Below are positions 8,103-40,852 of a stretch of DNA of 64,000 nt, piece after piece. The position numbers were made by a program, and so were the translations under genes. A model generated the notes under the pieces. It did no database searches. It saw only the letters and a program-made list of their open reading frames with translations, and was not told the DNA's origin. How positions within the stretch are numbered: the first letter of the stretch is position 1; every line of letters begins with the position of its first letter. Source of the DNA: Stentor roeselii (taxonomy: Eukaryota > Ciliophora > Heterotrichea > Heterotrichida > Stentoridae); contig RSEH01000112.1 of assembly GCA_006503475.1 (NCBI GenBank), positions 1 through 64,000 on the forward strand, read 5' to 3'.

Positions 8103-9542
8103 CTAATTAGAATAACTTTGAAGGATTTGAATGCATTTATCGAAGACTAAAGGGTTTTGATGGGTTTGGAGTTTTTCAACTACTGCGTCGTAGTTTTTCA
8201 TGTAAAATTCTTGGTTTCCTTTTACTTTCACGAACTCTTCGAAGACTGTTAAGAGATTTGATATGAATTCTGGGTCTTTGTGTTCCATGGCTTGAATAAT
8301 AGCCTGCACAAACTGATCATTTAAAAGTCTGGCCTTCATTTCCTCACTAGAGTGTTTTAAATAATTCCTAACAATATAGCTAGCTTCATTTCTAATCCTT
8401 GCTTTCTGACTCATCAGTCCATTCAACGAGCTATAAAAAACACAATGCGATGAAAGAATTTTAAGCTGAGCGACAGTCCCAGCAGCAATATTTTGAATAG
8501 AAAAGTAAATCACATAAAGCAATTCATCATCATCAGTATTCAAATAAGTCCAAAGCAAGTCAAGAATTCCTTTATCCAGAACCTTCTGAGTATGAGAGTA
8601 AGTCCCACTACAAACATTAGAAGCAAGAGTAATAATCGCTGAATGATACTCCGGGTTCGTTATAAATTCAAAACATTTCTCAAAAACTGGACTTTCAACC
8701 AGCAAGTCAACTTTTTTATTTTCATTTCGAATTAACCGAGACAAGACAAGAATGCCTTTACAATGCAACTCAATACTTGGAAAATTGAATAATTTTTGAC
8801 AAACTTCAATAACAATAGTCGTTTGTTCCTCATTAAACAAGTGGTCGAAATGGCAGAAGTTAGAAAGTCCCCAAACGATTGACATCATTAAAGTTTCAGT
8901 GAAAAACTTTGAAATAATTGACTTTACATGACCTAATAGTCCTTTTTCTAACATTGATTTGCAGTAGTTTTCATTATTACAGGCGAGGTTGAAAAGGCAC
9001 ATCAATGAATACTCGATGATTTCTTGAGAGTCTTCAGAGAGGTACTGAAACCAGTTGTCAACAAGTGACCCTTCAGTCAACTGGCTGATTATCTCGACAT
9101 TGTAACTTGCAGAGATGTTGCTGAAGACCCACATTGATGTAGCTCTGATCTCCTCAGAGAAGCCTCTTGATGTGTAAGGCTGAAGCTTTTCAACAAGTCC
9201 TGCATTTATCAGCATCATTTGGATTTCATCGTTGTTTCTTGTCACCATCACCAGGGTGTTCAAGAATTGCAAAAGAACTGAAGGCTCTAAGTCTTGAAGG
9301 GACTTCAATAGTTTTACGTAATCGCCTTTCAAAGGGTTAAAATCTTCTTCATTGTCTTCCTCGCATGAATCGGATGGACCGAAGGACATTTCCATCGAAG
9401 GCTCTTTGAAACGACTTGATATCAACTTCTCGAAACGCTTCTTCTTTCGAAGTTGAACTGAAAACTCTTGACGTTTTTGAAGTTCACTGTTAAAATCGCT
9501 TTTCTGGAATTTTCTGTTTCGTTCTTCGAGGGGATCGCCCAT
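8103..9542 (-). CDS. importin alpha (karyopherin alpha)
   Basis: 479 residues. The first ~50 are a basic importin-beta-binding segment (RNRKFQKSDF, VQLRKKKRFEKL). The rest is a chain of armadillo repeats (LEPSVLLQFLNTLVMVTRNND, EEIRATSMWVFSNISA, IEYSLMCLFNLACNN, MSIVWGLSNFCHF). The conserved W and N of the NLS groove are seen in several repeats, though eroded in later ones. It carries classical NLS cargo into the nucleus with importin beta. It is somewhat shorter than the usual ~520-540 residues. The start is in an AATAAATG context. Confidence 0.85.
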   Translation of the reverse strand: MGDPLEERNRKFQKSDFNSELQKRQEFSVQLRKKKRFEKLISSRFKEPSMEMSFGPSDSCEEDNEEDFNPLKGDYVKLLKSLQDLEPSVLLQFLNTLVMVTRNNDEIQMMLINAGLVEKLQPYTSRGFSEEIRATSMWVFSNISASYNVEIISQLTEGSLVDNWFQYLSEDSQEIIEYSLMCLFNLACNNENYCKSMLEKGLLGHVKSIISKFFTETLMMSIVWGLSNFCHFDHLFNEEQTTIVIEVCQKLFNFPSIELHCKGILVLSRLIRNENKKVDLLVESPVFEKCFEFITNPEYHSAIITLASNVCSGTYSHTQKVLDKGILDLLWTYLNTDDDELLYVIYFSIQNIAAGTVAQLKILSSHCVFYSSLNGLMSQKARIRNEASYIVRNYLKHSSEEMKARLLNDQFVQAIIQAMEHKDPEFISNLLTVFEEFVKVKGNQEFYMKNYDAVVEKLQTHQNPLVFDKCIQILQSYSN

Positions 9543-12340: not shown

Positions 12341-14170
12341 TTACTGGTATCGTGCCTCGGAACCGCGGTGGGAATTTAGAATTTCACTGATTTTTCTTCG
12401 GTCGTCTATGAGTCGTTCGGATAAGGTCTGGATCTTTGTGAAGTACTGGTCTTGAAGTCTTTCAAGGCTTTTTTTATACTCGGAAACTAACTTGCTTGAA
12501 ACTTCTTTCCACTCTGACATGTTTTCGTTTGGGATTGATACGTCTGTCTCGATGTGGAATATCAGGGAGTCTAGGAAGTCCATGTCTAGGTTGGGGTGAT
12601 AAGAAAATTCAGGTGTTGGGATGTCTACAGGACTTCCACCAGACCTAACTATAAGTTGATTTAAATGTGCCAAAGTCTGCTGTTCACTTTTAATAGTCCT
12701 AGCAAGTACCTCCTTATGACTTTCCAATTCCTTCTCCACCTCATTCCTGCCCCTCCTCTCCTCCTGTAATTTTTCCACAATTTTCTGATAAGCACTATTC
12801 ATTTTAATTTTCTCCTTCTCAAACTCAACCTGTTGCTTATCCATCATAATTCTAAGTCGATCAACAACTTCCCTTTCCTGATTATTCCCTTCTAAAATCT
12901 GTTCAATCTGCTGTTCCTTAACAAGAACTTCCTTCTTCGCACTTTCCAATTGATTTTCCAGAAACCCGCATTGACTTTCAAAGCTAATCTTCGCCGAGTT
13001 CAATTCAAGTAATTCCTGCTGCAGTTTCGTTAATTGACTTTTCAATTCAGTCGAAGAAGCAAGTTCTCCTAATATTTCATTGATATGAGGGGCGTTATGA
13101 ACAGTTTTTGCCCTGCTGGCAAAGCGAAGGGTTGACAAGGTTTGTTGATAGTTCATGGCAGCTGGAGAGACTGTGCAAATGATGGAGGCCAGCGAGTTGC
13201 CTCCCAGGGCTTGGCTTAAGATGCGAGTGAGTTTTGAGTCTCGGTAAGGAATGTGCTTTGTTTTTCCTTCTGCTAGTTTGTTGACGACGTGCGCGAGGAC
13301 GAAGAGACTTTTGTTGATGTAGCCTGCTTCGCCTACTTGGGATAGGTTTTTGGAGTCGAACTCGTTTAAACGCTCGCTTCCTGCCAGGTCTACGAGATTC
13401 AAACAGGCGTAGCGGATACGCCCACGGCCCCGAGAACCTCTCGCGTAACTCTCGATGTAGACTTGGAATAAAGTGTGGGATCTCGAAGAGTGCTCGTGAA
13501 TACTCGTCTCACGGTAGGTACGGTGCTCTTCACCGTAGTTCATTAGAAGGATCACTTGGTCGAACGTCCAGACTTGCTGTTGTTTTACTTCTTGGATTAT
13601 TACTCCTTGTTTTGGATCTTCTTTTATTTTTAGGTTTACTTTTCCTGGAGCTAGCAGGTCGTTTACTTGCTCGTTGTAGATTTCTATGTATGAGATCCAG
13701 ACGTTATATTCGTTTTCTGTGTCCTTTACAATTGTTTGGAAAATTTCACGAATTGAACAAGGAAGAATCCCAGGAAAATCAGGGGTTCCAAGCATAGTGT
13801 AAGTCTTTCCAGAAGTTGTCTGGCCATACATAAAAATAGTTCCATTAAAGCCGTTCAGCACTCGATGAATTATCGGACGAGAGACTTCATAATAGATCTG
13901 CTGAGAAGTAGACTCAGGACCATAGATATAATCAAAACTGAAAGACTGAGGACCTAAAGTCTCAGCATATCGAAGTTTGGCTTCTTTTTCACGAAGAGAT
14001 CCAGAAGAATTACTTGAAATATCTAAAAGTTTCGATGCAAAACTAGAAGTCAAGGTAAAAATTGTGCTGGTTCGAGAATCAATTCCCCAGATCTCTTCGT
14101 CTTCATAAGGCGCGAGTAGGGGACGCATACGGATGCAGACTTTTATAACTTCTCGGCTGAGGGATGACAT
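12341..14170 (-). CDS. kinesin-7 (CENP-E-like) motor protein
   Basis: 609 residues. An N-terminal kinesin motor spans about 1-355: P-loop GQTTSGKTYTM (residues 116-126), switch I SSRSH (about 230), switch II NLVDLAGSE (about 260), and HIPYRDSKLTRIL. A coiled coil covers about 365-500, and a helical tail follows. The P-loop GQTTSGKT (not GQTGSGKT) is the form seen in kinesin-7/CENP-E members, which I use for the family call. All ATPase motifs are intact. It is far shorter than CENP-E. It is expected to be an N-terminal, plus-end-directed motor. Confidence 0.85.
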   Translation of the reverse strand: MSSLSREVIKVCIRMRPLLAPYEDEEIWGIDSRTSTIFTLTSSFASKLLDISSNSSGSLREKEAKLRYAETLGPQSFSFDYIYGPESTSQQIYYEVSRPIIHRVLNGFNGTIFMYGQTTSGKTYTMLGTPDFPGILPCSIREIFQTIVKDTENEYNVWISYIEIYNEQVNDLLAPGKVNLKIKEDPKQGVIIQEVKQQQVWTFDQVILLMNYGEEHRTYRETSIHEHSSRSHTLFQVYIESYARGSRGRGRIRYACLNLVDLAGSERLNEFDSKNLSQVGEAGYINKSLFVLAHVVNKLAEGKTKHIPYRDSKLTRILSQALGGNSLASIICTVSPAAMNYQQTLSTLRFASRAKTVHNAPHINEILGELASSTELKSQLTKLQQELLELNSAKISFESQCGFLENQLESAKKEVLVKEQQIEQILEGNNQEREVVDRLRIMMDKQQVEFEKEKIKMNSAYQKIVEKLQEERRGRNEVEKELESHKEVLARTIKSEQQTLAHLNQLIVRSGGSPVDIPTPEFSYHPNLDMDFLDSLIFHIETDVSIPNENMSEWKEVSSKLVSEYKKSLERLQDQYFTKIQTLSERLIDDRRKISEILNSHRGSEARYQ

Positions 14171-15381: not shown

Positions 15382-16941
15382 CTACAAGTTTGGATTCGCT
15401 GAACTCATTTTTCTTGAACTAAGACGTTTATGTGATAATTTACGCTTTTGGCTGAAAGTGTTATGAGAATGAACTGAACTGTCAGCAGAGAAACCTAAAT
15501 AAATAATACAAAAGATAATCTCTTTAAACTTTTCATAACTCATAAAATCCCCAGCCTTCAATTCAAATTCATTACAAATTTCATCAATTTCAGTCTTCGA
15601 AATATAACACCCCGCCTTTTCAAGCACATATTCCAAATCACTAACACTGACAGTTCCATGAGAGTTCTAGATAAAAAATACAATATCAAAGTAGTTAAAA
15701 GCACTCCAAATACTTTCCTCATCAAAAATAGACCTTCGATCAGCAGTGACAATTAAAAATTGAGTGTAATTCAATTTTCCCTTGCCCAAATAATCAATCA
15801 AATCAATCAATTTCCTGATTTCCTCAGCAACGACAGGATAACCATTACTCAACATTGCCCTTTCAATATTTTCCGCAGTGATAAACCCTGTATGCTCCAA
15901 ATCAATTGCTTTAAATGCGGAGTCAAGAGTTTGAATTTCTTCATACGACAGGTTTTTGATGAAAACCTTCATCACTTCATTCCAAAGTTTTCCATGAGCC
16001 TTGAAATTTTTCAAAGAGTTGAAAATTTCAAGCTTTACTGGAGGCAGACCAGTTAAATTTGAGAACCAAGAATGGCATAAGGCACTTGGAATTGAAAGTC
16101 GTAATAATGGGTCAACAACGAGTAGTCTTGAGATCAGGTCCTTCGCCTCTTCAGAGACCAGATTCCATTTGGGGTCATTAAACGAGTACCTGCAATTCAA
16201 AATATTTGAAAGCAACTCACTCATATTTTTCCCTTTAAACGGTTGTCTTCCCGTAAGAAGAAAGAACATAACAACCCCTAAGCTCCAAACATCACATTCT
16301 TTTCCATAGTTCCCCAGACAGACTTCAGGAGCAAGATAATAAGGAGTTCCAACCACAGTATGCATCGGGTCCTCACTAAACTTGACGGCCATTCCAAAGT
16401 CAACAAGTTTTACTTCAGAGTTGGCTTCATGAGAAACCAAAAGAAAATTATCAGGTTTTAAGTCTCTATGACAAATCGAAACAGTATGCAAATGATTAAC
16501 AGCAAGAAAAACCTTCTTCATAACAATCATCACTTCTTTTTCAGTCAAACTTCCTTTATTCAAAATATAATCATAAAGGTCCCCCCCCCTGCAGAGGTCG
16601 AGGACAAGGTGAAGATATTTCTCGTCTTCATAAATTTCATGAAGTTTTATTATGTTTGGATGATCCACTATTGAAAGAAGGTCAAGCTCGCTTTTAAGAA
16701 CTGAAAACTTTTTGAAGACTTTTTCTTTTGAAATTGATTTTATTGCGAAACTCTTGCTTTGTGAATCGAGCTTTGTTGCTTCTCTTACTGTGCCGAATTG
16801 CCCGAAGCCTAAAACTTTTATGAATTTGTAGTGACTGTGGATACTGTTCAGTCGAGACTTGTTTGAAACTTCTGAACGAGTTAATAATGCGGCTTTGAAT
16901 GGCTCTCGCGTGTTTGTGACTAGAGGACAGCAGGTTCCCAT
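15382..16941 (-). CDS. CDPK: calcium-dependent protein kinase with eroded EF-hands (one 15-nt intron)
   Basis: Joining 16941-15682 to 15666-15382 gives 514 residues. MGTCC at the start signals myristoylation and palmitoylation. The kinase domain (about 40-293) is complete: GFGQFG loop, K68 in AIK, HRD at 158-160 with DLKPDN, DFG at 181-183, and APE at 204-206. A CDPK junction and four EF-hand positions follow, but the loops are poor: DLEHTGFITAEN (347-358), DYLGKGKLNYTQ (383-394), DINSHGTVSVSD (419-430), and a fourth with no recognisable ligands. Calcium control may therefore be weak or lost. The intron sits inside the third EF loop. Its start codon is only 39 nt from the divergent neighbour's. 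Confidence 0.88.
15667..15681 (-). other. 15-nt spliceosomal intron
   Basis: Read on the minus strand: GTATTTTTTATCTAG, with A at position 10. It is phase 0, between the first two residues (DI) and NSHG of the third EF loop. Removal restores a continuous EF-hand; retention ends in TAG. Confidence 0.92.
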
Positions 16942-16980
16942 TTGTTTATTTTACAATATTTTAATGATATTATAACTAGC
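16942..16980. promoter_or_regulatory. 39-nt divergent promoter interval
   Basis: This is the entire space between the divergent CDPK and 16981 start codons. It is AT-rich (TTTATTTTACAATATTTTAA). Any promoter must either fit here or lie inside the opposite coding region. Confidence 0.5.
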
Positions 16981-17733
16981 ATGGAGATTTGGATGGATTT
17001 TCAAGCAAGTGCTTTTTATATGATTAATAGAACTACGGGTGATCAAGTAAACTGTGACAAGTTCGGTTCACTTCCTTCAAGTTTCAAGCCCTATTCAACC
17101 GGTTTCCAAAGTCAAAGACCTCAAAACATAATAGAAGCCGACCATAACTACCGAGTGCAACCTAAAAAATTCGACGGGTACTTCCAATGTCCCCGCCCAT
17201 CCTCTCACATATCAGAAGTGCGTCGTCCTTACACGTCAACCACAAAAAAATACATCCCAAAGCGTTTATCCGACGACATAAAAAAACTGCCCCGACCAGT
17301 GGCATCTTTAAGTTTTTCTAAAGTCTTTGAAGGCCAATCAACGCCACCACAAATGACAAGAGCCCACAAGTCATCCCTTCCAGAAAGCGAAGCCTTAACA
17401 ATAGAAACAATAAAAAGTTCAATGCGTGAAAGTCCAATACGAGAAATCAAGACAGCAAAGCAAATCCTCGACCATAACCATCAAGAAAAAGAAAAAGCTA
17501 AAGGGTACCAAGCCCCAGCTTCTAAAGTAAAAAGGCGAAAGTTAAAAGGCTTTTTTATGGTCGACTTCCCCACAGATCACGATTTGGTCAAGAAGGAAAA
17601 AAATCTTCTTGAAAAAACGAATCCAGTCGCAGTGGAAAAGCAAAGAAAGTTAGAAGCTGCTGAATATAAAAATCTTGAAAGGAGAAGGGCTCAGAAGGTG
17701 CTGAAGAATAAGTTGATTGAAGGCAGGGGATGA
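16981..17733 (+). CDS. basic protein of unknown function
   Basis: 250 residues, rich in K, R, P and S, with no recognised domain. Visible features are a proline-containing central line (KKLPRPVASLSFSKVF) and a C-terminal basic helix with many K/R/E (EKQRKLEAAEYKNLERRRAQ). Such proteins are often microtubule- or axoneme-associated, which is only a guess. The first usable ATG is at 16981. The TGA stop is 32 nt before the giant fusion gene. Confidence 0.6.
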   Translation: MEIWMDFQASAFYMINRTTGDQVNCDKFGSLPSSFKPYSTGFQSQRPQNIIEADHNYRVQPKKFDGYFQCPRPSSHISEVRRPYTSTTKKYIPKRLSDDIKKLPRPVASLSFSKVFEGQSTPPQMTRAHKSSLPESEALTIETIKSSMRESPIREIKTAKQILDHNHQEKEKAKGYQAPASKVKRRKLKGFFMVDFPTDHDLVKKEKNLLEKTNPVAVEKQRKLEAAEYKNLERRRAQKVLKNKLIEGRG

Positions 17734-17765: not shown

Positions 17766-20700
17766 ATGGAGCAGTTACATGACAACAGTCCTCGAGTCAT
17801 CTTCGTGACCGGCGGGCCTGGCACGGGTAAAGGGACTCAATGTCCGAAACTAGTGGAAGAATTTGGATATAAGCATGTTTCAATTGGAGACCTGATGAGA
17901 GCTGAAATCAAATCTGGAAGTGAAGAAGGAAAGAATATTGTTTCTATTGTACAGTCTGGAGGATTGGTGCCTAAAGAATTGACTGTCTCACTTCTGCAGA
18001 AGTCGTTGTCTAGCATCTCGGCACATACTGTTCTTGTTGACGGCTTTCCTCGTTCAGTTGACCAAGCCTTATACCTAGAGCAGATCGGTGTTCGAGTAAA
18101 GTTCCTTCTGCACTTCGACACCGACAAAGAAGACGTTCTTTTAAACCGTTTAATCGAGCGAGGCAAGATCAGTGGTCGAGCAGACGACAACGAAGAGACA
18201 ATAGTAAAAAGATTTAAAGTTTACAAGTCAGAGTCCCTTCCAGTCCTTCAGCTTTACGAGCCATTCGGAGTAGTAAGAAAAGTGAACTGCATGGGTACAG
18301 TAAACGAAGTCTTTTTCCGAACCCTTTGCGCCTTAAGACCTGAGACCTTCTTCATCGCAGGTGCAAAGTCAAGCGGCAAGTCGACATTAGCAGAAGCATT
18401 AGGCCGAAGATACTATTTTTTTGTGTTAGACCTTCAAAGAGTCATCAAGAAAACTGACGGCTCCGATGAAGCAATCACTAGAAAACTCGTCCAAACATTG
18501 CAGGGCTTCAAACATGAATCTCGAGTACTCGTTGACGGGTTCCCCATGAATGAAAATCAAGCGAGGTTGTTTTCAGGAATGCTTGGATTGCCGAATAAGG
18601 TGTTGTTCCTTGAATGTCCTCCTGATGTCTGTCAAGAAAGACAATTGGCACTTGGGAAAAAGACTCCTGGGTATATCAGTTCTAATGATTTAAGCAAACA
18701 ATATGCAGAGTCGGTCAAAACTTATTCGGCTTTGAGTCAGTATTACTCGTCTACACTTTCTTCTCACTTTAAAAAAATCAACTCGAGGAATGTTGAACAG
18801 GTCTTTAAAGAAGCTTCTTCTTTTGTTGAACCTGAAGTTTTACTTGTTAGAGGAAATATTAGACCTTGCTTTTTGATTTATTTTAAGGAAAAAGGATTTA
18901 AATTGGTTAATGTTGTACACTTGATTGAACTTTGGAGAAATGCTAGGGGACAGTCTGTTAGTGAAAATCAAAGTAATCTTTCGGATGACTTGGAAACTAT
19001 TGATGTTATTAGGGATTTGGTTTTTTCGGGGAATGCTACGGAAAAGTTCTTGATTTATAACTTTGCGCTTGGGAACCCTGAACTTATTGAAATGTTTGAA
19101 AGACGTGTCTGCAAGATTTCAAAAGTCTTTCAACTCTACAGCGGAAAAGAAGTCTCACTGGACAGAGTAAACTGTTACTTCGCATCTCGTCCAAATTTTT
19201 TCACGATAAACTCTGAAAAAATCTCATACAAGCGAAAACTCCTTCCAGAAGACAAAAAGATAATCGAAGACAGTATCAGAAGTCAAAGTCCAGCCGATCA
19301 AAGCCAGTTCATTTTCCTATTAGGAGCGAGTTTAACAGGAAAAACAACAATTTCCAAGCATTTACAAAGACTCGGAATGCGTATCATGGACTTTTCCTCC
19401 TTCATCGAAGAGACAAAAGCCCGTTTATCAACAGAAGAAGAGCCAAAAGAAGACCTGAGCTTTTCTGAAATAATTGAAAGTCTTCAAGAAGAAGCTAAAA
19501 AGAACCCTTTTCAAAAAATCATCTTTGACGGGCTTCCTCCTTCTGAAGTTCTCTTCGCGAAGGACCCGCTATGGCCTTTGCCCGAGTCAGACGAGAAGGC
19601 AGAAGAAGAACTGCCTTTCGACGAAGACCCTTCAATTCAGTCCAGGGTCTCTTCAACAGCCCTTAGAATGAAAATCTTGATGGAAAAACTTCAAGTCTTG
19701 TCAGTGATTCACCTGAAGGTCCCTTACCAGGTCCTTGAAAAACGTGCCAGGAAAAAATTTGAAGTACCAGAAGAAGAAGATTTAAACAACGAGCAAAAAT
19801 CTCAGATTTTTGAAAGTTGGATGATTTCTCAAAGACTTTACTCGAAACCTGTTCCTAGTCGATTTTTTATTCCTCAGGTTTTGAGTTTTAATACTGAAAA
19901 GGTTTCAATTCCTCAGATTTCTGCGAAACTTCAGAATGTTTTTAAGAGAAAATGCGTTTTAGTTGAAAGCAACTATCCAAGTGGGTTTGATGCTGTGAAG
20001 AAGATGGCTTTGAAGCATTTGATTCCTTGTATTGATTTTTCTCTTTTGTCAGCAGGTGATCCGAGTTTATCAAAACAAGACCTTTTGAAATCCCGAGCTC
20101 TTTCTCTTCCTCCAAACAGCAGATACGTCATTTTGTGTAACTTTCCATTTAAACTTCAAGAGTTTCAGTCAATTTTAGAAGATTTCACATCTTTAGAAGA
20201 CTGGATGGGCCATCTTCATAAGTTTTACATATTTTCTTCGAAAGAAGTGAATTCAGAGACCTTTCAAATTGATCCAAGTCCTCGTTCAGGTGATTCTCAT
20301 GTTGTTATGTGGAACAATTCAGAACTTTCATCGCAATATAAAGTTTTTTCTATGTTTAAAGGAGAACCTTGCAAGTTTTCAGCTTATTCAATTGATTATA
20401 ACAATTATTCACAAGTTGTCGAACAATTGGTGGAAACTATTGATGATGAAGGAAGACTTTTAATGAATTTTGTGATGGATGAAAGCTCGGCAAGGGGTTT
20501 TCAGTCTTATTTTTATGATGAGATGCTTTCTTTTTGTGGGGATTTTAAAGAACACCTGTTTTTAGACCTTTCTTCTTTAGATACTAAGAAAAAGATTCAA
20601 AATGCGCTGAAAAATCCACTTTCGAAAGAGTTTCATGATAGGTATTTAAAGGCTTATACTGTACCGTTTTGCTTGTTTTTTGAACATTTCACTAAAGTGC

Positions 20701-23027
20701 TGAAGGAAGAAGAACTTGTTGTAACTTCTGGGCTGAGGAAAAGTATTAAAGAGTCGATTGACTTGAATAAGAATAGTTTTATTGATGCTGAAGAAGTTTC
20801 ACTGTTTTTTGACTCTTGGGGTATTTCAGAAGAAAGAGAAATGATTATTAATCGAGGAGTATCTTATGATCGAAGAGAAGTTATTGATAAACTTGGGTAT
20901 TCACTTATTTTCTTAGTTGAACAAGCACTTCCTGATGCTGTTACTGGAGTTTCTAGCTTTAAACGTGGGGAATCTTTTGAAATTCAATTTGAAGGGTTGA
21001 AGAATTCGAAAAGGTTCTGCGCGGATCGGACGGTTTACTTCGGCAAGGAGAACCCTCAATTCAAAAACGACATAGAGTTCAACTCAGCAGATACTCGTGT
21101 AAGCATAAGCCACTTCCAAATCCACTCCAAGAAAACAGGTTACTTCCTAGTAGACAACTCGAACTCAAACGTGATGAAGCTCCAGATCTTCGAAATTCCT
21201 GTCACGCTTTTCGAAGACTGCCTGATTTTCATCGGAGAGCACCAGATTCGTGTAAAAACTTTGACAGTTCCTTTAATTCAAGACGACGACGTCTTAAAAC
21301 TAAACTTCAGAGGTCGTTCATCTCAAATAGACCCGATTCCAGTCATAGAACTTGAATTTCTCTCAGAGTCTCTCTACGGCCTCAAGTTTAACAACTCCGG
21401 CAAAAAAGTCCTGACAATTGGAAGTTCCAGTTCAAGTGACCTGGTCATTTACGGCGCAAGTCCTTGTCACGCGATAATCGAACTGCGAAAGGCAGGTTGG
21501 TGCATAAAAGACAATCACACTGTTTCAGGTACTTACATTTCAATAAACTCCTTTTACAACATTTCTTATAAAAAACCTTCTCCAGCTCTTCAGATAGTTC
21601 ATGGAATGCGTTTTGAAGTAGCAGGTCTTTCATTCAGACTTCTTCAAAAATCCTCATCAAAATTAATAGTAGATGTAAACGACTTCCAACAATTCCGCTT
21701 TGAGAAGTTCAGTGATCATTACTCAATCGTGAGGCATTTAAGTAAAAGTGTCCTTGGAGAGAAGTACATTGTAAGGCACCTTCAATCGAAGCAGTACTTT
21801 ATCGCGAAGATGGTGAGTTTAGAGCAAATCACAGAAGACGCGATAACTGAAATGCAGATACTGAAGCAACTCGACCATCCGAACACAGTTCGCGTTGTTG
21901 ACACGATCGCGGACTACAACAACAAACTTTACATCATCAGCGAGATGTGCACTGGACCTGAACTCATGGAAAGGATCATGTCTAAAGGAAGCCATTCAGA
22001 AGAAAACGCCTGCAGGTATATTCGGCAGGTCTTGCAAGGACTGGCTTATCTTCACAGCAACGGCGTTCTTTGCAGGGACCTGCGGCCTGAAAACCTGCAG
22101 TTCGCTGACGGCTCTGAAGACTCTCTGCTGAAAATATGTGAATTCGCTAATGCCATTGAAACGAAAGGATTCGTTGATAAAATCGTCGCAAGTAGTCATT
22201 ACCTGGCACCTGAAGTATTTAGTAATGTTTATACAAGTGCCTCAGATATTTGGGCTTGTGGGGTCTTGCTTTATACTCTTCTTGTTGGAGTACCGCCTTT
22301 CACTGGGAAAACTGATGCTGATGTCAGGAAAAAGGCAATGAAAGGAAATCCTGGGTATAAAGAAAAAGCTTGGGCAAGGGTCTCTAATCATGCGAAAAGA
22401 GTTGTTAGACTTTTACTTACTTTTGATTATTTGAAAAGACCTACGGCTGAAGAGGTTTTAAATGATCCTTGGGTCAAGCAGTCTTTGAAGTTTTTAGATA
22501 TTTCGAAACCGATGATTGCGAGAACTTTCAAGAATTTTAAACATTTTTATTCATCGAATAAATTGCAACATTCGATTTATATGTTTATTGCAGAGAATCT
22601 CAATAATAATGAAATTAAAAAACAGGCTGCTGACTTGTTTACTCATCTTGATTTGAATGGAGATGGAAAGGTTAGTGTGCAAGAACTTGTTGCGGGAATG
22701 GCTGATATGGGGATTTTAATGAGTGAGCAGGAAATTCAGATGATTATTCAGGAAGTGGATGGGAATGGAAATGGATGGGTGGATTTTTCTGAGTTTTTAA
22801 CTGTCTTCACAACACGACAAAACATCTCCACAAAAGAAAACCTCGAAAAAGCGTTCTCCCTCTTCGACGCAGACGGTAGCGGCGAAATCAGTACCTCAGA
22901 GCTAAAGCGTATATTAGGCCAAAGCGAGAACGAGTGGTCTCAAATAATAAAAGAAATCGACGAAAACAAAGACGGCAAGATCGACTTAAAAGAATTCAAA
23001 AACCTTCTCCTAAGAGTAGGCTCATAA
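17766..23027 (+). CDS. adenylate kinase repeats-FHA-FHA-pseudokinase-EF-hand fusion
   Basis: 1753 residues in one uninterrupted frame. (1) Residues 10-190: an intact adenylate/UMP-CMP kinase with P-loop GGPGTGKGTQ (16-25), DGFPR (92-96) and lid SGRADDNEE. (2) 195-345: a second unit with AGAKSSGKST (198-207) and DGFP, but no normal lid. (3) 513-720: a third with GASLTGKTT (520-528) and DGLP (588-591). A more eroded unit may lie at 728-900. (4) An EF-hand-like loop DLNKNSFIDAEE (999-1010). (5) Two FHA domains at about 1070-1165 and 1197-1295, each with the SxxH motif. (6) A kinase-fold domain (1320-1575) that keeps K1348 and APE but has CRD for HRD, R1440 for the DLK lysine, EFA for DFG and no glycine loop, so it is probably a pseudokinase. 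(7) Four canonical EF loops: DLNGDGKVSVQE, DGNGNGWVDFSE, DADGSGEISTSE and DENKDGKIDLKE. I infer a calcium-responsive nucleotide kinase. The start is in a TATAAATG context. Confidence 0.9.
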   Translation: MEQLHDNSPRVIFVTGGPGTGKGTQCPKLVEEFGYKHVSIGDLMRAEIKSGSEEGKNIVSIVQSGGLVPKELTVSLLQKSLSSISAHTVLVDGFPRSVDQALYLEQIGVRVKFLLHFDTDKEDVLLNRLIERGKISGRADDNEETIVKRFKVYKSESLPVLQLYEPFGVVRKVNCMGTVNEVFFRTLCALRPETFFIAGAKSSGKSTLAEALGRRYYFFVLDLQRVIKKTDGSDEAITRKLVQTLQGFKHESRVLVDGFPMNENQARLFSGMLGLPNKVLFLECPPDVCQERQLALGKKTPGYISSNDLSKQYAESVKTYSALSQYYSSTLSSHFKKINSRNVEQVFKEASSFVEPEVLLVRGNIRPCFLIYFKEKGFKLVNVVHLIELWRNARGQSVSENQSNLSDDLETIDVIRDLVFSGNATEKFLIYNFALGNPELIEMFERRVCKISKVFQLYSGKEVSLDRVNCYFASRPNFFTINSEKISYKRKLLPEDKKIIEDSIRSQSPADQSQFIFLLGASLTGKTTISKHLQRLGMRIMDFSSFIEETKARLSTEEEPKEDLSFSEIIESLQEEAKKNPFQKIIFDGLPPSEVLFAKDPLWPLPESDEKAEEELPFDEDPSIQSRVSSTALRMKILMEKLQVLSVIHLKVPYQVLEKRARKKFEVPEEEDLNNEQKSQIFESWMISQRLYSKPVPSRFFIPQVLSFNTEKVSIPQISAKLQNVFKRKCVLVESNYPSGFDAVKKMALKHLIPCIDFSLLSAGDPSLSKQDLLKSRALSLPPNSRYVILCNFPFKLQEFQSILEDFTSLEDWMGHLHKFYIFSSKEVNSETFQIDPSPRSGDSHVVMWNNSELSSQYKVFSMFKGEPCKFSAYSIDYNNYSQVVEQLVETIDDEGRLLMNFVMDESSARGFQSYFYDEMLSFCGDFKEHLFLDLSSLDTKKKIQNALKNPLSKEFHDRYLKAYTVPFCLFFEHFTKVLKEEELVVTSGLRKSIKESIDLNKNSFIDAEEVSLFFDSWGISEEREMIINRGVSYDRREVIDKLGYSLIFLVEQALPDAVTGVSSFKRGESFEIQFEGLKNSKRFCADRTVYFGKENPQFKNDIEFNSADTRVSISHFQIHSKKTGYFLVDNSNSNVMKLQIFEIPVTLFEDCLIFIGEHQIRVKTLTVPLIQDDDVLKLNFRGRSSQIDPIPVIELEFLSESLYGLKFNNSGKKVLTIGSSSSSDLVIYGASPCHAIIELRKAGWCIKDNHTVSGTYISINSFYNISYKKPSPALQIVHGMRFEVAGLSFRLLQKSSSKLIVDVNDFQQFRFEKFSDHYSIVRHLSKSVLGEKYIVRHLQSKQYFIAKMVSLEQITEDAITEMQILKQLDHPNTVRVVDTIADYNNKLYIISEMCTGPELMERIMSKGSHSEENACRYIRQVLQGLAYLHSNGVLCRDLRPENLQFADGSEDSLLKICEFANAIETKGFVDKIVASSHYLAPEVFSNVYTSASDIWACGVLLYTLLVGVPPFTGKTDADVRKKAMKGNPGYKEKAWARVSNHAKRVVRLLLTFDYLKRPTAEEVLNDPWVKQSLKFLDISKPMIARTFKNFKHFYSSNKLQHSIYMFIAENLNNNEIKKQAADLFTHLDLNGDGKVSVQELVAGMADMGILMSEQEIQMIIQEVDGNGNGWVDFSEFLTVFTTRQNISTKENLEKAFSLFDADGSGEISTSELKRILGQSENEWSQIIKEIDENKDGKIDLKEFKNLLLRVGS

Positions 23028-23048: not shown

Positions 23049-24053
23049 TTATCTAGAGACAACACTTTCAAAAGAGACCATCGACTTCGTAGGTCTTAAA
23101 AAACTGTTCTGAACTTTAATACTCGAAATAATTTGAAGGTTGACATAAACCCAAACCGCTTCCCAGTCCTGCTCAGTCAAATTGCAAAAAGGCCCAAAGA
23201 GATTTTTCGTCATTTTTAAAGAAATATTTCCAAGATTTTCAAGTTTTTCTCGCATTTCAAATACTTTTCTTTTGTCTAGTCCACTTTCGATCTCTGTTAA
23301 ATATACTGAACCTTTACGGCATAGAAGACGCTCGTGAGATTTGCAGAAACCGAGATGGTTTGCTTCGAATCCGCATTGAGATTTCTTGCATAAAGTTCTT
23401 CGGTTGAACCAGATTGATTTGAAGTTTTGCTCGTTTAGAGATGAAGATTTACAGGTTTTCATTAGGAAGGTTTTTACTGTCTTTTCTCCGCAGGGAATAC
23501 TCAAGTAATTAAGCATCCTCGTAAATTCGAAAAATCCAATCGACTTCCCCTTCGAAAATTTATTCCAAGCAGTTTGAAAATCTGGAAAAGCCTCTTGAAG
23601 TTTCAAACTCAAATTGAATTTATAGCTACTAAAAGGTGACATTTCCCTAAAATCAGCAGTTCTCGAAGGACGAACAGGTTCAACAGGCGCTTTAGGTATA
23701 AAAAGCGGTTCATCCTCAACATCCCAGTTAGTTTCAGGCATGAGTAAAAAGCTGATAAGCGTGTTTCTAGCAACGATGCAGTTATTTTTTCCTGAAAAAA
23801 CTTGAAAAATAACTTTTAGGTCCTGATGATTGAAACCGATTCTGAGAAAACTGAGAAAAGTTGAAAAGTCTTTCAAGGTTATTGGGTCTGGAAGCATTTG
23901 CTGAAGTTGTGACTCGAGGTTTGAAGGAGAGTAGATGTCTTCTAAGCAGCATCTGAGTTTTAACCAAAATTTGTCGCCGTAGTGACGGAGACAGAATCGG
24001 CCGATTACTTTTACTTTTTTACAAGATTGAATAGCGCAAAAAATTGATGACAT
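23049..24053 (-). CDS. protein with duplicated C-x4-C-x9-C-x2-H zinc motif
   Basis: 334 residues. The same cysteine/histidine spacing occurs twice: near the N-terminus (CAIQSC...FCLRH, residues 6-24) and around 229-247 (CKKSQC...FCKSH), both C-x4-C-x9-C-x2-H. This recalls the WRKY19-type small zinc motif. Between them are helical pairs resembling degenerate EF-hands (ITLKDFSTFLSFLRIGF, KGKSIGFFEFTRMLNYL). Function is unknown; a zinc-stabilised calcium-binding-fold protein is one reading. It converges on the fusion gene with 21 nt between stops. Confidence 0.65.
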   Translation of the reverse strand: MSSIFCAIQSCKKVKVIGRFCLRHYGDKFWLKLRCCLEDIYSPSNLESQLQQMLPDPITLKDFSTFLSFLRIGFNHQDLKVIFQVFSGKNNCIVARNTLISFLLMPETNWDVEDEPLFIPKAPVEPVRPSRTADFREMSPFSSYKFNLSLKLQEAFPDFQTAWNKFSKGKSIGFFEFTRMLNYLSIPCGEKTVKTFLMKTCKSSSLNEQNFKSIWFNRRTLCKKSQCGFEANHLGFCKSHERLLCRKGSVYLTEIESGLDKRKVFEMREKLENLGNISLKMTKNLFGPFCNLTEQDWEAVWVYVNLQIISSIKVQNSFLRPTKSMVSFESVVSR

Positions 24054-30731: not shown

Positions 30732-33700
30732 CTAAATTTTGCTTTTATAATAATTCGGCCAAGTTTGTACTGTGCCCTCATTTTTATCATTAAAAGGAAC
30801 AACGGCTCTTCTTCTTCTGATCCACATCTTCATTTTGAAAATTAACTTTCCAATAATAAAGAAAATGTTGCTTGAGAGAGCAATAGAAACAATAGAAATA
30901 ATATAAAAGTCATCAATCTCAAACCTAAAAGGAAATTTCAAGATCATAATCCAATAAAAAAAGACAGTAGTGCATTCACTTGTCAATAAGAAGCCTTTAT
31001 TAAAAGGTTCAATATGAGATTGTGAAAAAATGATATAAAACACATTCTACTTAAAACTTACAGCAACTGAAAAAATTGAAAGCAGGAACAAAATAACAGC
31101 TTCACTTTTAAACAACAGCAAAATCAACAAAAATGCAAATCTTCTAACTACAAACAAAACATAAAACAAACAATAAGAATCCGATTTAAATTCATTGAAA
31201 AACGTTCCGAATTTCTTGAGAAAAGCTGCTTTTTCTTCTTCATCAGTTATCTTGTAATGCTTGTTGATTGTTATGTACAAAACTGGAATTCCTATAAAGT
31301 TTATCAGCTACTTGAATGTTACCAGTGTAAAAAAACAAACAACAAGGTCAATAAATTGAAATGAATTCGCAAATTCAGTGTTTTTTATCCCGATTATGCT
31401 GCATAAAGTAGTTTCAAGATACCCCTGCAGCCAAAGTTTGAGAAAAGCATCGAATTCTAAGTATTCAAGGACTTTTCGAGATAAAGTATTACTTTTTAAT
31501 AAATCGATTAACTTGAAAATAATGTAAAAAGAACCAAAAATAGCGAAAGAAATGAAATACATTCCTGAGTTCAAAAGGATGAAGTTGGTTTTATAACCGT
31601 ATTTAATAAACTTTTGATTTAGTTTCACTCCTGAGTTGCTGTCGAAAAACTTCTCAATGAATGTCGGCAAAGTAGAGGAATAATGGATTTGGGCTAAAAA
31701 TGCTGTGATGTTTGGAGACATTTCTATGTCGTATAAAATTATGCTGGAAAAGATTTCTGCGCTGTTGCGAAAGTTGAGGTAGCTTTTTAGGTCCATATTC
31801 ATCAAACTCATTCCAGCACTTACAGCAGCTCCTATCAACATTCCTTTTTCGGTGGCTGATTCAATATACTTGACATCATCAATTTTTTTTTCCAATTTTA
31901 GAGGAAATAAATAGGCATTATGATAGATATTAGAGAGCAATGATAGTTTTTTTGAGTATATTGGCTTTGAAAATAAAAGATATAATTGATCGTTTTGATA
32001 GACATCTTCCTGAAAATCAATCGTTATTACCAACACCGATGAATTTAGAAAGTAAATCGAAAAGGGAAGTGAATTATTGTTTACTTTAATCTCGATATCA
32101 CTTTTTGAAGGATTTTTTAACAAAGATTCATTGAAAATTACTGTCAAAGCATTCTTTAAGTCCACAGTTAAAGCACAATAAAAATAAACCTGCTCACACT
32201 TTAGATACCCTTGAAACCCCATTTCACATCCACAAAGATTATCATTTTTCACTTCAGCATTTTTACTACAATTAAAACAATAACTTGAACTCGCACAACT
32301 ACTACAAAGTCTCGGACACTTCTGACAACTCATCAAATTTTCATCAAAATACTCAGACTCTCCACAAACCGGTACACAAATTTTCCTAAAAAGTCTAAAA
32401 TTTTCATTGCAAGTGACACAAGATCCCTGAGAATAATCTCTGCATTCAAAACAATTCAAGTCCTCACAAAGGTTACAAGAAATTTTACTCCGACATCCTT
32501 TTTCACATTGACTGCACTGAAAGCACTCAGAAGGAAAGGTGGAAATATTACAGAAAGAAAGACATTCTCCATCAACAGGAAAAAATCCACAGTTTTCACT
32601 AAAATTCAAATAAATTGAAAAGTCTGAAGGTCCTGAAAAAAGTGAAATTTCATATAAAAAACCTGAAAATCCATTAAAAAACTCAGCTGAACTTCCGAAG
32701 TAAAGCTTTGTAGTTGACGTTGAGTTAAAAGGAGTTTTTCCAAAGGTTTGCCAGTCTTCTTGAGCCAAGTTTAAGACAAGTGCCAGACTAGTCTCTGTCG
32801 AGTACTTGACCATAAAAGCCAAAAAGTTCCATTTTCCTGTTTTTATTGAACTCATGAAGGTAGCAGTCTTGTAATCTTCTAACAAAAGTTGAAATTTTAT
32901 CAGTCCAGAATCAATGAATGCTTTGATTTGATAAGTTGAAAAATTCTTGGCACTCATTATAATACCTGAGTCTTTTTCAAGATTTATCCAAAGTCCTATT
33001 GAAAATTGAATTCCGAGAAAGTACTCTGGGTACCTTGAAGCTAAACCTAATGCTGAATGACCTGTCATGTATACACCTCGACCTATTGCTGGCCATGGGT
33101 CGTTTTTATCAAGATGAGGATAGAAATATTTGTCGCTTCCATGGGTTAGTCGAAATGTTTTAGTGTTGTCGTAGAAAACTCCATCCAGTCTTTCGAGTTT
33201 AAATCTAAGGATCAGGATTTTTGGATCTTGAATGCATTCTTTGTTTATTTGGTTATAACCAAAAGGACATAAATTTACACAAACACTGCCGAGTAAGTAA
33301 TTAGAACAACTTGTGCATCGATAGTATTCATTAGTTAAACATCCATAGCAATATTTATGGCAACGAATACAATCTCCATATGAATTCATCCAATATCCTT
33401 CATCACAGACACAAGATAAATTTTCACTATGCGAATGAGCAAAACAAAAGCAAGTTTCTAAACTGACACAACTTTCACAGTTATTTTGACAAGGATCACA
33501 AGAGTAGTTAAGATGATTGTAATAAAATCCTTTATCACAACTGCACATTGAGCCATTAAATGTTGAGTTTGGTTTACAATTCACGCAACCATATTCGAAG
33601 TTAACGCAAGAGGAACAAAGCGGGTCTTTGCAAAGTTCACAGACTTTGTTTCTGACACAGCCATATGAGCAGTTATTACAAGATGAGCAGTTTCCATTGT

Positions 33701-36368
33701 TAAAGTAAGTATCGATTGTGCAGTTAGAAAGACATTCTAAGGTCAATGAAGTGATACAGAAGCTTACTGGAAGGGAAATCATTTCAAGTGAATTATAAGC
33801 TTTGAACCTGTATAGAAAGCCGATAAATGATAAAGATTGATCTCCAATTATCATAGGTGACAGTACTTTATCGAGCATTCCTTGACTCCATGCTAATGAT
33901 GATTCACTATTATCTCTTCTACATCTAACAATCTGATTCCCATACAAGTCAATCCAAAACCCAAGCGAAACAAAATGCCATTCCAAATCAGAAACACCAA
34001 AACTTCCTTGATCCCCAGTAGACGAAAAATTAAAAACCTTCAAATACAAATCTTCATAAACAACTTGATAATCTCCCTTTCTAAAAAAATTCCCATTTCC
34101 TTCAAACCTGACCCAAAAGACCAAAGTAAAATTATAACTCAACCTTTTCTCTTCAGTAACAAGAAAACTTTCCTTCCTAAAGTAAAACCCTCTTCTCAAA
34201 GCAGGTACAGGATGCGTCGGGTTCAATTCCGGAAACACAGCAGAATCATTTCCCATCAAAATCTTAGTCTTGCCCAAATCATCATAAAATTCAAATGAAA
34301 TCGACGTGAAATCTTTACTGATAAGAAGAGTGTCTGAACTGGAACATTTCGAGTTTAAGTTAACGAATTGCGAAGGACAAGCATCAGTGCAAGCATGTCC
34401 TAAGAGCAGAGAAGAGTTGCAACTAAGGCATGCAAATCGGTGACTATCGAAACAACTGCTGCATTCTGAATTGCAGCAGAGACCGTTCGTGTAACGAGAT
34501 GAAGAGTCACACATCGTTGAGTTGTTTCTGATGCATTCTTCGTCCCAACTGGAACAAGATGTGCAGTCTGGGTATTTGCAGTGATTGTTTGTTCCCCAAC
34601 TTGAACATTTGCTCGAGTTTGGACATGATCTGCAGATTTTTTGGTATGAGTTGTAATAGGATAACTCGTTGCAGGTGATTTTTACGTCGTTTTGAAGGAT
34701 GTTGTTACGGTTTAAAAGGACGTAGTCTTGGTAAATAGTTATTGAGTATAAGATTATTAAGCCTGTTGAAGAGATTATCATTTTATCGTCGTTGCTTAGA
34801 TAAATGAAACCTGCGATTGAGAAAATTATTTCTTCGTTCATTTCTAAAACTCCTCTGATGGTTGTTATGTCATTCAAGAAATTTACACTAAGTGAAAAGT
34901 AAATCCAGGAGTTATAGATTTGGTTTGAGTGGCCTTGATTTACAACACGATATGAGTCTGTACCTGTTAAGGTTATGGAAAAACTTGCATGGTTTTTCAT
35001 TATAAAGTTTCCTAAATCAATGATATTTGTTGTTGTTGTAAATACCCAGATTCCTACAGTGAATTTGTAGTTTAAATTAAGGTATTTTCCATCACGAGTT
35101 TTTAAGAGTTTGTAGCTATTAATGTAAAGTCCTCGATTGGGCACGATGTAAGGATCATCAGTGGAATGGTTGTAAGGAAACCATGTTTGGGGATCAGCTC
35201 CACTTTGAAGTAATCCGAATTTATACTGCTCATAAGTCCTGAATACATAGTCAACAACAGGGTACTTCTCAGAGCCTGGATAGTAATCATAAGGTTGCTT
35301 CATACATTTAGTGTTTAATAAAATATAACCGCTTTCGCATGATGTGCAGGTGAATGTAGATGTACAGTTAGTGCAATGCATAGCACACATGCAATTAGGA
35401 GGTGACAGACTTGGATTAGTGCAATTTGTGCAACTTAGATAGTCGTATGCTGAGCAACTATCGCAAGCTGAACTGTAGCAAACATTGCATGATTCTCTTA
35501 TGCACCAGGGCCAGGTGGGACATGATGAGTTGCAGTCCACACAGACTTTCCAAGGATTACAGTACTGATTATAATCACACAAACAAGTATACCGGTAGCT
35601 AAATGGTAAAAATGTACCTCCTTGAGACACAAAGTTCGACTCAATAAGAAAGCCTCTAAAACTATCCGCGAACATACTTCCATAAGCGAATTCCGTTTCC
35701 CCACTACACGGTCTATATTCAAAGCCACCTACAGCGATACTATCCCAATCAGTGATAGTAGTGATTCGAAAATCAACTCGACTAGTAGAAGGATGATTAA
35801 TAAAAACCGAAAAACTTTCCCAGTGGGTGTTATTAAAAGTTCTTTCAAGTATCTTAACTTGAAAATCAGAGATATTGACAAACCTGACATGTGCTTGAAT
35901 TTTACTTCCTAATATCGAGACCTTAAATTGACTTATTCCATCACAGAGCAGCTCAAAGACCTTTCCATCTCCTTTAAAGATTCCTGTTACCCTGAAGGCG
36001 AAATTAGGAGAAAGGCTGGCATTAGTGATGTTATTCATAAAACTCGAACTCTCAAAGTAAAACCCTTGATCGACTGTAGGAATTGGAGTGATTCGAGAAG
36101 GTGAGTTAAAAGGAATTCCTCCAAGTGTGTTGAATCCATTGAAACTAGTCAGGGAATAGTCAGAGACTGAGTAAAATTTGTTTGAAAAGATAGTCTCTGG
36201 AAGAGCGGAGCAGAAACTGGCGTTTGGACTTGAAGGAACTGGACATCTATCAACACAGAGCCTGTTGTTGTATTTTTTCCCTTTAGTGCATGTTGTGCAT
36301 AGTAAGTCTGAGCAAAACATGCTGGCGTTCACTTTGGAGGCCAGAAGAAAAGCAATCATTAACCACAT
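30732..36368 (-). CDS. large cysteine-rich, LamG-like, multi-span surface protein (two 15-nt introns)
   Basis: Joining 36368-31323, 31307-31062 and 31046-30732 gives 1868 residues. A signal peptide (MWLMIAFLLASKVNASMF) is followed by four beta-rich modules of about 200 residues that look like concanavalin/LamG sandwiches. Each module is introduced by an R/Q-G-x-Y motif (QGFYF, RGLYI, RGFYF, RGVYM). Between them lie furin/GFR-type cysteine repeats (CxxC...CxxC, such as CRSKISCNLCEDLNCFECRD). From about residue 1440 there is a beta domain and then a multi-span membrane region with the line FDAFLKLWLQGYLETTL, shared with the paralogue at 47168-50982. The C-terminus has three or four further spans and a basic tail. 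Similar ciliate proteins are surface receptors or TRP-like channels. Function is inferred only. Confidence 0.8.
31047..31061 (-). other. 15-nt spliceosomal intron
   Basis: Minus strand GTAAGTTTTAAGTAG, phase 0, between FSVA and NVFYII. It is identical in sequence to the intron at 47776-47790 in the paralogue, which lies at a different homologous position. Confidence 0.92.
31308..31322 (-). other. 15-nt spliceosomal intron
   Basis: Minus strand GTAACATTCAAGTAG, with A at position 10, phase 0, between CFFTL and LINFIG. Its position matches the intron at 47776-47790 in the paralogue. Confidence 0.9.
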
Positions 36369-38707: not shown

Positions 38708-40852
38708 ATGGCTATTCCCAAAAGCTTCGGCGAGTACGTAACCAAAACTTAGGAATGTTTAGGACGTTTCGGAAACTCAGGTGAGCAGATGTTTCAAGTG
38801 CTCGACCTAAAAAACGAAATCCTCCTTCTTCGACTAATTCCTCAAGAAAACTACGAATTTAGCAATTTAGAACTGAAAGTAAGTTTACTAAAAGACGTGG
38901 CTTACAAGTACCTTCTTTCTTACAACAACTGCTTCTTGCTTAGCAGGTCGATTTCCATATGCTATGATTTTTTCTCTGGGGATCTACTCTGTGATTATGT
39001 CAAAGCACAGGGAAACCTTTTAGAAGACCTTGTAAAGAAAATATTAAAACAAGTCCTTAAAGCTCTTCATTTTTTACATAATCAAGGATTGATTCATGGA
39101 AACTTGGATAGCAACAAGATCATTATTTCTTCGGAAGGAAAAGCTAAAGTTTTTGACTTTGGAATGATTCAGACAGAATTTCATGAATTTTCTAGTCCTG
39201 AGTCTAAACAAGGAAAGGATTTGGATTCTTCTAATGATATTTGGTGTCTTGGGATACTTGTTGTTGAGATGCTTACTGGAAAGAAACATCATGTCAAAGA
39301 CTTTGCTTCTAATATTTTTTCCAATGAAATCCAAGATTTTGTTTCAATATGCACACATCCTACTCCTCAACTCAGACCATCAACCAAGGATTTACTTCAA
39401 CATGGATTTTTTTCACTTCGAGATTCGTTTTTCAAGCATAGAAGATCCGAGGCTTGCAACACAAATACTCATGCAGAGCTGGTCCTCTCTCCAAACAATC
39501 TTGCGTCAAAATCACCTCAATTAGAAGGAAGTACAAATTCGAAAGGTTTTCATGACTCTTTTTCAATATTGAGTCTTGATGACCACTCCCAACTCGTCGA
39601 AAGCATCGACCTAAACTCATCACATCTCGGTAGCAACCTAGAGATCCTCCTTCTAAAAATAAAAGAAAACCCTGAAGTAAAAGACTCAATGGCCAGTCAA
39701 TTAGTAAAACTAAAAGAAGTAATCGAGTTAAGTCCCGACGACGAAATCGTATTACTCGCCTTAAAAATCATAACAACACTTTCCGACAAGTCTCACGAGT
39801 TACTCGAAAGAATTTGCTTAATCGGTTTACTTGCATCAATTTTACCCTTAGCAGGAGAAGAGCATTTAAGAGAGACTCGAATCGAAGTTGCTTTTTTGAT
39901 AGTCCAGATGTTTAAATACGAAGACCTTGGCAAGATGTGCCTTGCAGCAGGAGGCTTGGAGGCCCTTCCCAAGTTACTCGACGCGGACTACGACGAAAAT
40001 AAAGACCTGGTCCTTATCGCGCTTGACTGCATGTTGCCCTTGAGTGCAAACAACGACAACCTTCGAGTCTGGGCAAACAACGGGACTGCAGAGCGCCTTG
40101 TGATCACTTTTTCATCTCTGCTTAAAGACAGTCAGTCCTACGTCTCAAAACTCGCTGAACTCATTTTCGCTTTCGCCCGAGGACCTAAGGCTGAGTTTTT
40201 ATGTGTTGCTGAAGTACTTGAATTGTACCTTTTTTCTCTTAAAGAAGTCTCAGATGATGTCCTTCTCATCTGTTTAAAGACCATTCAGGTCTTGATTCCT
40301 AAATTTCATAATTCACTGGAAAACCTTGGGTGCATTGTTGATTTTATCACTTTTCTTAGAAGGTCTTCTGAAGTTCAAGAACTTACTCTTATTTGTCTTA
40401 TTCAGTTCTGTGAACTTTCACCTGCGAGGTATGAACAGTTTTGTATACTGGATGGAGTACCTCCACTTTTAGAGATACTTAGCAACTCTGAACATCTTGA
40501 CCTTGCAATTGAAATGCTTGCTGCTCTTCCTGCGGTTTCTAATGGAGCAAGGGCTGTGCTTAGAACTTTGAAAGTTATGAAGTTTATGGTCAGGCTACTT
40601 GTGGATGATAGGATTGTTGAAGCACTGAGTAAATGGATTAAAAATGATTCTTTGCTTGAGTCAGAAGTACTCGATTCAGAAGTTTTAGATGTTATTGGAA
40701 CTCGTATTAGTCAAGAGACTCAGTTGATTAAGTGGGAAGGAGTTTTTGAGAGTTCTTATAATATCAAAAAGAACTTATTTGAAGTTGTTAAGAAAAAAGG
40801 AGGAAGTCAACGAGTTTTAGACTTGATTAGACAGGAGTTGAGTAGAAGTTAA
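38708..40852 (+). CDS. pseudokinase with armadillo repeats (one 15-nt intron)
   Basis: Joining 38708-38737 to 38753-40852 gives 709 residues. Exon 1 codes only ten residues, and the splice completes the glycine-loop line GEYECLGRFGNSGEQ. The kinase fold (about 5-235) lacks the VAIK lysine (LLLRLIPQ), has HGN in place of HRD (IHGNLDSNKIII) and keeps DFG, so catalysis is doubtful. Residues 300-690 form armadillo/HEAT-like repeats (GLLASILPLAGEEHL, GGLEALPKLLDADYDENKDL). Kinase plus C-terminal ARM repeats recalls Cdc7/SepH/MAP3K-epsilon kinases of septation and cytokinesis pathways. Here it is probably a scaffold. The stop is 20 nt from a convergent stop. Confidence 0.8.
38738..38752 (+). other. 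15-nt spliceosomal intron after a 30-nt first coding exon
   Basis: GTAACCAAAACTTAG, with A at position 10, phase 0. Removal joins MAIPKSFGEY to ECLGRFGNSG, giving a sensible kinase N-lobe. Confidence 0.85.

Follow-up and report, generated by a model that had tools for sequence, protein, structure and literature searches.

An NMP kinase joined to a CDPK-derived predicted pseudokinase with a conserved calcium switch in Stentor roeselii

Background

CDPKs are enzymes in which calcium releases a protein kinase, and described examples such as TgCDPK3, TgCDPK1 and Plasmodium CDPK2/4 are built from a kinase fold, a junction helix and four EF-hands. Titin kinase, a second system that bears on the locus described here, belongs to another kinase subfamily, is not accompanied by a nucleotide kinase and, to our knowledge, has a tail that carries no EF-hands. 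One study treats titin kinase as a pseudokinase devoid of activity, in which DFG carries Glu, VAIK carries Met, and the catalytic-loop Lys is replaced by Arg (PMC4042850). The same study reports that in twitchin kinase the D147E substitution alone leaves no measurable phosphotransfer, that kinases with IxK exist, and that Val at the VAIK position leaves twitchin kinase active (PMC4042850). In a further study, the Glu of an EFG motif was discussed as perhaps compensatory, such that some activity may be possible (PMC12862963).

The short NMP kinases AK1, UMP-CMP kinase and yeast uridylate kinase are chains of approximately 190 to 220 residues. NMP-kinase folds are also found within longer proteins, as in AK7 and AK9; we know of no CDPK or FHA part in either of these proteins or in AK8. 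Together with AK8, which is described as having two AK domains (PMC10056885), these ciliary adenylate kinases resemble the present protein in harboring such folds inside a longer chain.

Domain order of the fusion protein

The window analysed here is a stretch of 64,000 nucleotides from Stentor roeselii (positions 1 to 64,000 of the forward strand of contig RSEH01000112.1, assembly GCA_006503475.1), and its long frames are readable with standard codons (table 11). Within it, an initial annotation had delineated one frame of 5.3 kb, and the 1753 stop-free codons found there bear this out (Table 1). The encoded protein comprises, from N to C terminus, an intact NMP kinase, a clear eroded relative of it, a marginal eroded relative, stretches without a family, a single EF-hand-like loop, two FHA matches of which the first is weak and the second significant, and lastly a complete CDPK module bearing four EF-hands. 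Approximately 400 of the 1753 residues are without an assignable family.

Table 1. Features of the fusion frame, in window coordinates
Feature	Residues	Position	Strand	Basis
Single open reading frame, 1753 aa, ATG to TAA		17766..23027	+	open throughout
Intact short-form NMP kinase (AK1/UMP-CMP kinase type)	9-188	17790..18329	+	motifs, Pfam, PDB matches
Eroded second NMP-kinase-like unit	186-357	18321..18836	+	Pfam, UMP-CMP model, shuffle test
No family match	358-504	18837..19277	+	Pfam scan, shuffle test
P-loop kinase-like unit	505-726	19278..19943	+	AAA_18 under cut-off; shuffle test
No credible family match	727-985	19944..20720	+	Pfam scan, shuffle test
EF-hand-like loop DLNKNSFIDAEE	999-1010	20760..20795	+	motif
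FHA1, weak	1065-1175	20958..21290	+	Pfam FHA 17.2 bits, cut-off 20.7
FHA2	1176-1316 (match 1217-1259)	21291..21713	+	Pfam FHA 26.5 bits, cut-off 20.7
CDPK-type kinase domain, predicted pseudokinase (SKSVLG, FIAK, CRDLRPEN, EFA)		21711..22484	+	Pkinase 2.5e-51, CDPK alignments, motifs
CDPK junction (autoinhibitory) helix region	1583-1616	22512..22613	+	aligned to 3hzt, 4ysj
EF-hand loop 1 DLNGDGKVSVQE		22650..22685	+	Pfam, motif
EF-hand loop 2 DGNGNGWVDFSE		22758..22793	+	Pfam, motif
EF-hand loop 3 DADGSGEISTSE		22866..22901	+	Pfam, motif
EF-hand loop 4 DENKDGKIDLKE		22959..22994	+	Pfam, motif

The N-terminal NMP kinase

The first domain displays the motifs GGPGTGKGT, GDLMR, DGFPRSVDQ and RGKISGRADDNEETIVKR, with its P-loop and LID arginines in place. 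Its assignment to the short-form NMP kinases (the AK1/UMP-CMP family in the broad sense) follows from the P-loop, the Arg of GDLxR, GFPR, the LID arginines, and a Pfam ADK score far over the cut-off when the whole protein is scanned (2e-46, 158.3 bits against 26.8, with residues 14-166 as the best stretch). Among solved structures in the PDB, the domain matches yeast uridylate kinase (1uky) at 2e-48, AK1 (3adk) at 8e-47 and UMP-CMP kinases at 7e-41, and domain alignments indicate that the Gln of GFPRSVDQ is common to yeast uridylate kinase (GFPRKMDQ) and AK1. The likeness to these enzymes extends over the entire domain and its catalytic motifs; unlike them, it is here the first domain of a much longer chain. 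The description of this region as an intact nucleotide kinase, and as the only clearly catalytic unit of the protein, is upheld.

The further suggestion that AMP is its specific substrate was not sustained. The domain alone lies under the cut-offs of both corresponding NCBIfam models, scoring 183.5 bits against 207.6 on the UMP-CMP model (TIGR01359) and 177.9 bits against 284.1 on the AK1 equivalog (TIGR01360), and a reading in terms of ATP, ADP and AMP is therefore just one option. The whole protein attains 207.8 bits on TIGR01359 only by adding a second stretch to the NMP kinase domain, and at 193.3 bits it is likewise under the cut-off of TIGR01360.

A peptide-pattern scan of prokaryote contigs with this domain returned at least 595 pattern stretches and at least 546 confirmed relatives, and the titles of the best 80 of these relatives name Prevotella, Bacteroides and other Bacteroidales. 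The prokaryotic relatives are taken to be ordinary bacterial adenylate kinases, uninformative with regard to the fusion.

Eroded P-loop units and FHA matches

The unit at residues 186-357 keeps a Walker A sequence (GAKSSGKST), DLQR, DGFP and the Gln, and shows Met in place of the catalytic Arg of GFPR together with an altered LID. It matches Pfam AAA_17 at 4.5e-8, Pfam ADK at 3e-5 (24.6 bits, under the cut-off of 26.8) and the UMP-CMP model at 2.5e-8. A shuffle test was conducted with a profile of 78 distinct bacterial kinases (drawn from the best 80 loci) and the window's own domain, using 500 shuffles of each stretch, and not one of the 500 shuffles of this unit reached its score. The unit at residues 505-726 keeps an intact Walker A sequence (GASLTGKTT) and FDGLP, and matches AAA_18 at 3.5e-5 (24.7 bits against a cut-off of 29.4); one of its 500 shuffles scored as well, that one shuffle at 9.5 bits against 0.9.

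Between and beyond these units the same profile gave no support, with stretches 357-505, 716-880 and 860-990 equalled by 96, 212 and 166 of 500 shuffles, respectively, and a control stretch (985-1316) by 262 of 500. An AK-like strand order seen by eye in residues 357-505 and 716-990, which had suggested more than three AK copies, was dropped because the profile fails to separate these stretches from shuffles. On the strength of the family scores and shuffle counts, the 'two or three eroded copies' proposed at the outset resolve into one clear eroded relative of the NMP kinase (186-357) and a second, marginal one that is likely (505-726), with any further copy unproven. The eroded units match AK8 weakly (E 0.31), and AK7 and AK9 are absent among the 16 sequences that match them at E ≤1.

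The region between the P-loop units and the CDPK module had been assigned an EF-hand and two FHA domains, and each assignment holds in part. The former is represented by a single canonical-looking loop, and no standard EF-hand family was matched by residues 967-1064 scanned alone, the sole hit being to the EF-hand-like domain Cbl_N2 (E 0.2). Of the latter, FHA2 by itself exceeds the Pfam cut-off and FHA1 falls under it, and a phmmer search of residues 967-1316 against solved structures returned nothing at E ≤10. FHA domains contact phosphothreonine through the Arg of GR, the Ser of SxxH and the Asn of NG. The corresponding motifs, read by eye rather than from a profile alignment, are GK, SISH and SNV in FHA1 and GS, SPCH and SGT in FHA2, such that Ser and His appear to be present and the conserved Arg to be missing from both; phosphothreonine docking through these domains is therefore doubtful.

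The CDPK-derived module

Residues 1316-1750 form a full-length CDPK module that can be aligned to apicomplexan CDPKs along its whole length (TgCDPK3, 3hzt, at 5.9e-86). Over 435 residues its layout is that of TgCDPK3, TgCDPK1 and Plasmodium CDPK2/4: the kinase fold is followed on the same chain by a junction helix and then by four EF-hands. The module differs from those proteins in the N-terminal fusion to FHA, P-loop units and an NMP kinase, and in its active site. The Gly loop is lost, reading SKSVLG where 3hzt has GSGAYG; RAIK of 3hzt is replaced by FIAK, which keeps the Lys and places Ile at the VAIK position; HRDLKPEN is replaced by CRDLRPEN (residues 1436-1443), which keeps the Arg, catalytic Asp and Asn and substitutes Arg for the catalytic-loop Lys; and DFG is replaced by EFA (residues 1459-1461), with loss of the metal-binding Asp and a change of Gly to Ala. 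The alphaC Glu and APE are kept. The initial annotation had described a kinase fold lacking both HRD and DFG: the loss of DFG stands, and the HRD motif is present as CRD, so that the catalytic Asp is kept. With that Asp in place and the DFG Asp and Gly-rich loop missing, the module is regarded, from its sequence, as CDPK-derived and is not classed as an active CDPK.

Three of these changes fall at the same positions as those of titin kinase (DFG, VAIK and the catalytic-loop Lys). The two kinases have in common the change of the DFG Asp to Glu, the change of the catalytic-loop Lys to Arg, a bulky VAIK residue and a flanking regulatory tail (PMC4042850, PMC12862963); titin kinase, on the other hand, has Met where the present VAIK residue is Ile, and the present protein has Ala in place of the DFG Gly. 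As an indication of inactivity, the Ile is the weakest of the three by analogy, since kinases with IxK exist and Val is harmless at that position in twitchin kinase (PMC4042850). Four canonical EF-hands had been claimed, and four canonical 12-residue loops are present; taken with the junction, they support the view that the calcium switch is conserved and its loops competent to bind calcium.

The better reading is thus probably the one originally proposed, in which an intact calcium switch is paired with a dead kinase, because titin kinase shares the Asp-to-Glu and Lys-to-Arg changes and because the former change alone abolishes the activity of twitchin kinase. Inactivity is a prediction, since the VAIK Lys, alphaC Glu, catalytic Asp, catalytic-loop Asn and APE are all kept. 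These same residues, the Arg of CRD, the conserved calcium-release machinery and a Glu that may be compensatory (PMC12862963) would also suit a working, if weak or unusual, calcium-dependent protein kinase for which the NMP kinase locally supplies or clears nucleotides. That alternative is unlikely, given that the metal-binding Asp has been lost together with a broken Gly loop and a Lys-to-Arg change, and that a D-to-E change was sufficient by itself to inactivate twitchin kinase (PMC4042850).

Other kinase-like frames occur in the window. A separate, neighboring CDPK-like gene (15667-16941, minus strand) keeps HRD and DFG, which favors the scaffold reading given below. It ends in a 15-nucleotide AT-rich GT..AG sequence, running from 15681 down to 15667 with an A at position 10, past which its frame resumes with EF-hand-like sequence, and the intron candidate's own TAG closes the open frame; a second candidate of the 15-nucleotide type lies nearby at 15509. 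Introns of 15-16 nucleotides are reported for Stentor coeruleus, in most of which position 10 or 11 holds the branch A (PMC9505925), and the candidate that closes the CDPK-like frame is of this type. A further frame (38789-40852, plus strand) is protein kinase-like (Pkinase 1.1e-23, model positions 49-263 of 263) and carries HGN in place of HRD (LIHGNLDSNK); it may be a pseudokinase as well, one extended by a long C-terminal part.

Possible roles of the calcium switch

The best explanation of this arrangement, advanced tentatively and with somewhat less than an even chance of being correct, is that of a calcium-responsive scaffold, in the form of a single large ciliate protein that carries one active NMP kinase. 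As happens in ordinary CDPKs, calcium bound to the four EF-hands would still make the CDPK activation module rearrange around the kinase fold, and because the kinase is inactive or nearly so, the output would be an altered shape or binding partner rather than phosphorylation. The eroded P-loop units and FHA folds may provide surfaces for docking or for structural support. At the site that the scaffold occupies, perhaps cilia or cortical contractile fibres, the N-terminal kinase would interconvert nucleotides (ATP with AMP or UMP/CMP). Targeted NMP kinases have precedent in ciliate motility: in Tetrahymena, adenylate kinases occur at radial spokes, six of them are reduced in various radial-spoke mutants, and three have been assigned to RS3 (PMC12399478).

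In the model favored by the initial annotation, calcium binding at the C terminus acts allosterically, within the same polypeptide, to turn the N-terminal NMP kinase on or off. The one catalytic unit that is clearly intact does lie on the same chain as an unimpaired calcium switch, and this co-residence is what speaks for direct gating. We nevertheless rate the model as improbable: about 1100 residues separate the NMP kinase from the CDPK module, the literature searched offers no contact, structure or precedent, and the alignment of the NMP kinase to stand-alone enzymes shows no evident regulatory insertion. The broader formulation of a calcium-gated nucleotide kinase, in which a CDPK has lost its protein kinase activity through titin-like substitutions and its switch is re-used through the FHA and eroded P-loop regions to control or place the NMP kinase, seems similarly doubtful. 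Single-sequence structure prediction, run with no alignment, gave mean pLDDT values of 33.9 (residues 185-1101) and 36.8 (residues 1065-1316), and the resulting models are unusable.

Neutral decay of the C-terminal half following the fusion, with the NMP kinase alone being of importance, would be consistent with the loss of the Gly loop and DFG and with the degenerate FHA motifs and P-loop copies. It has rather little to recommend it: the 1753 codons are open and the junction and four EF loops canonical, features that decay is not expected to spare, and an intact sensor alongside an altered catalytic site is not what simple decay of the whole half predicts.

Continuity of the reading frame

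The preceding frame (16942-17733, plus strand) reaches its stop 32 bases before the ATG of the fusion frame, and the next frame (23049-24053, minus strand) has its stop 21 bases past the end; neither gave a Pfam match at the thresholds used. A scan inside the fusion frame for introns (15 or 16 nucleotides, GT..AG, branch A in place, A+T at least 70%) identified a single weak 15-nucleotide candidate, at 20065, which contains no stop and would, if spliced, cost five residues. A gene-model or assembly artefact, in the form of a chimeric join or of two transcripts read as a single frame, might be argued from that candidate and from the frame being known from DNA sequence alone, and is very improbable given 5.26 kb of continuous, stop-free sequence, flanking frames that are separate at 32 and 21 bases, and the rarity with which an accidental join survives in frame.

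Third codon positions in the window flip blockwise along the coding strand between G/T-rich (maxima of 0.80-0.90 per 40 codons) and A/C-rich (minimum G/T of 0.12-0.25). All 11 of the long frames examined, a selection from 25 that includes 8103-9542, 12341-14170, 17766-23027, 53886-56141 and 57048-59222, behave in this way. For each frame, none of 300 synonymous-codon shuffles reached the observed spread, and the autocorrelation fades by approximately 80-100 codons. The asymmetry was considered as a mark of fused pieces, and was rejected as such given its presence in every one of these frames. Elsewhere, two large cysteine-rich frames on the minus strand (31308-36368 and 47776-50517) contain many CxxC units, have C-terminal ends that look alike by eye, and possibly encode related surface proteins.

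Relatives and significance

The eukaryotic comparison set consisted of the sequences of solved structures. Scans of viral contigs with the full protein and with the NMP kinase domain, and of prokaryote contigs with the CDPK module, recovered no relative; since each used six short peptide patterns, their outcome is weak evidence of absence. A 2017 preprint on the Stentor kinome reportedly mentions 'novel domain architectures' in its title. Literature on the architecture, searched by title or abstract, yielded no description of this domain order, and the word 'adenylate' is absent from the main texts of two articles (PMC5924475 and PMC3239843). The fusion is considered to be CDPK-derived, and the newness of its domain order in print is unproven.

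The titin-like changes in the active site would represent convergent loss in two distant CaM-kinase-type kinases. A calcium switch that has been kept, a protein kinase apparently lost and a nucleotide kinase apparently at work would, if this reading is true, amount to the re-use of a sensor for energy or nucleotide metabolism. The finding would matter if calcium proved to control or place the nucleotide kinase; were the latter indeed gated by calcium, calcium spikes in a giant contractile ciliate would be coupled to its local nucleotide balance.
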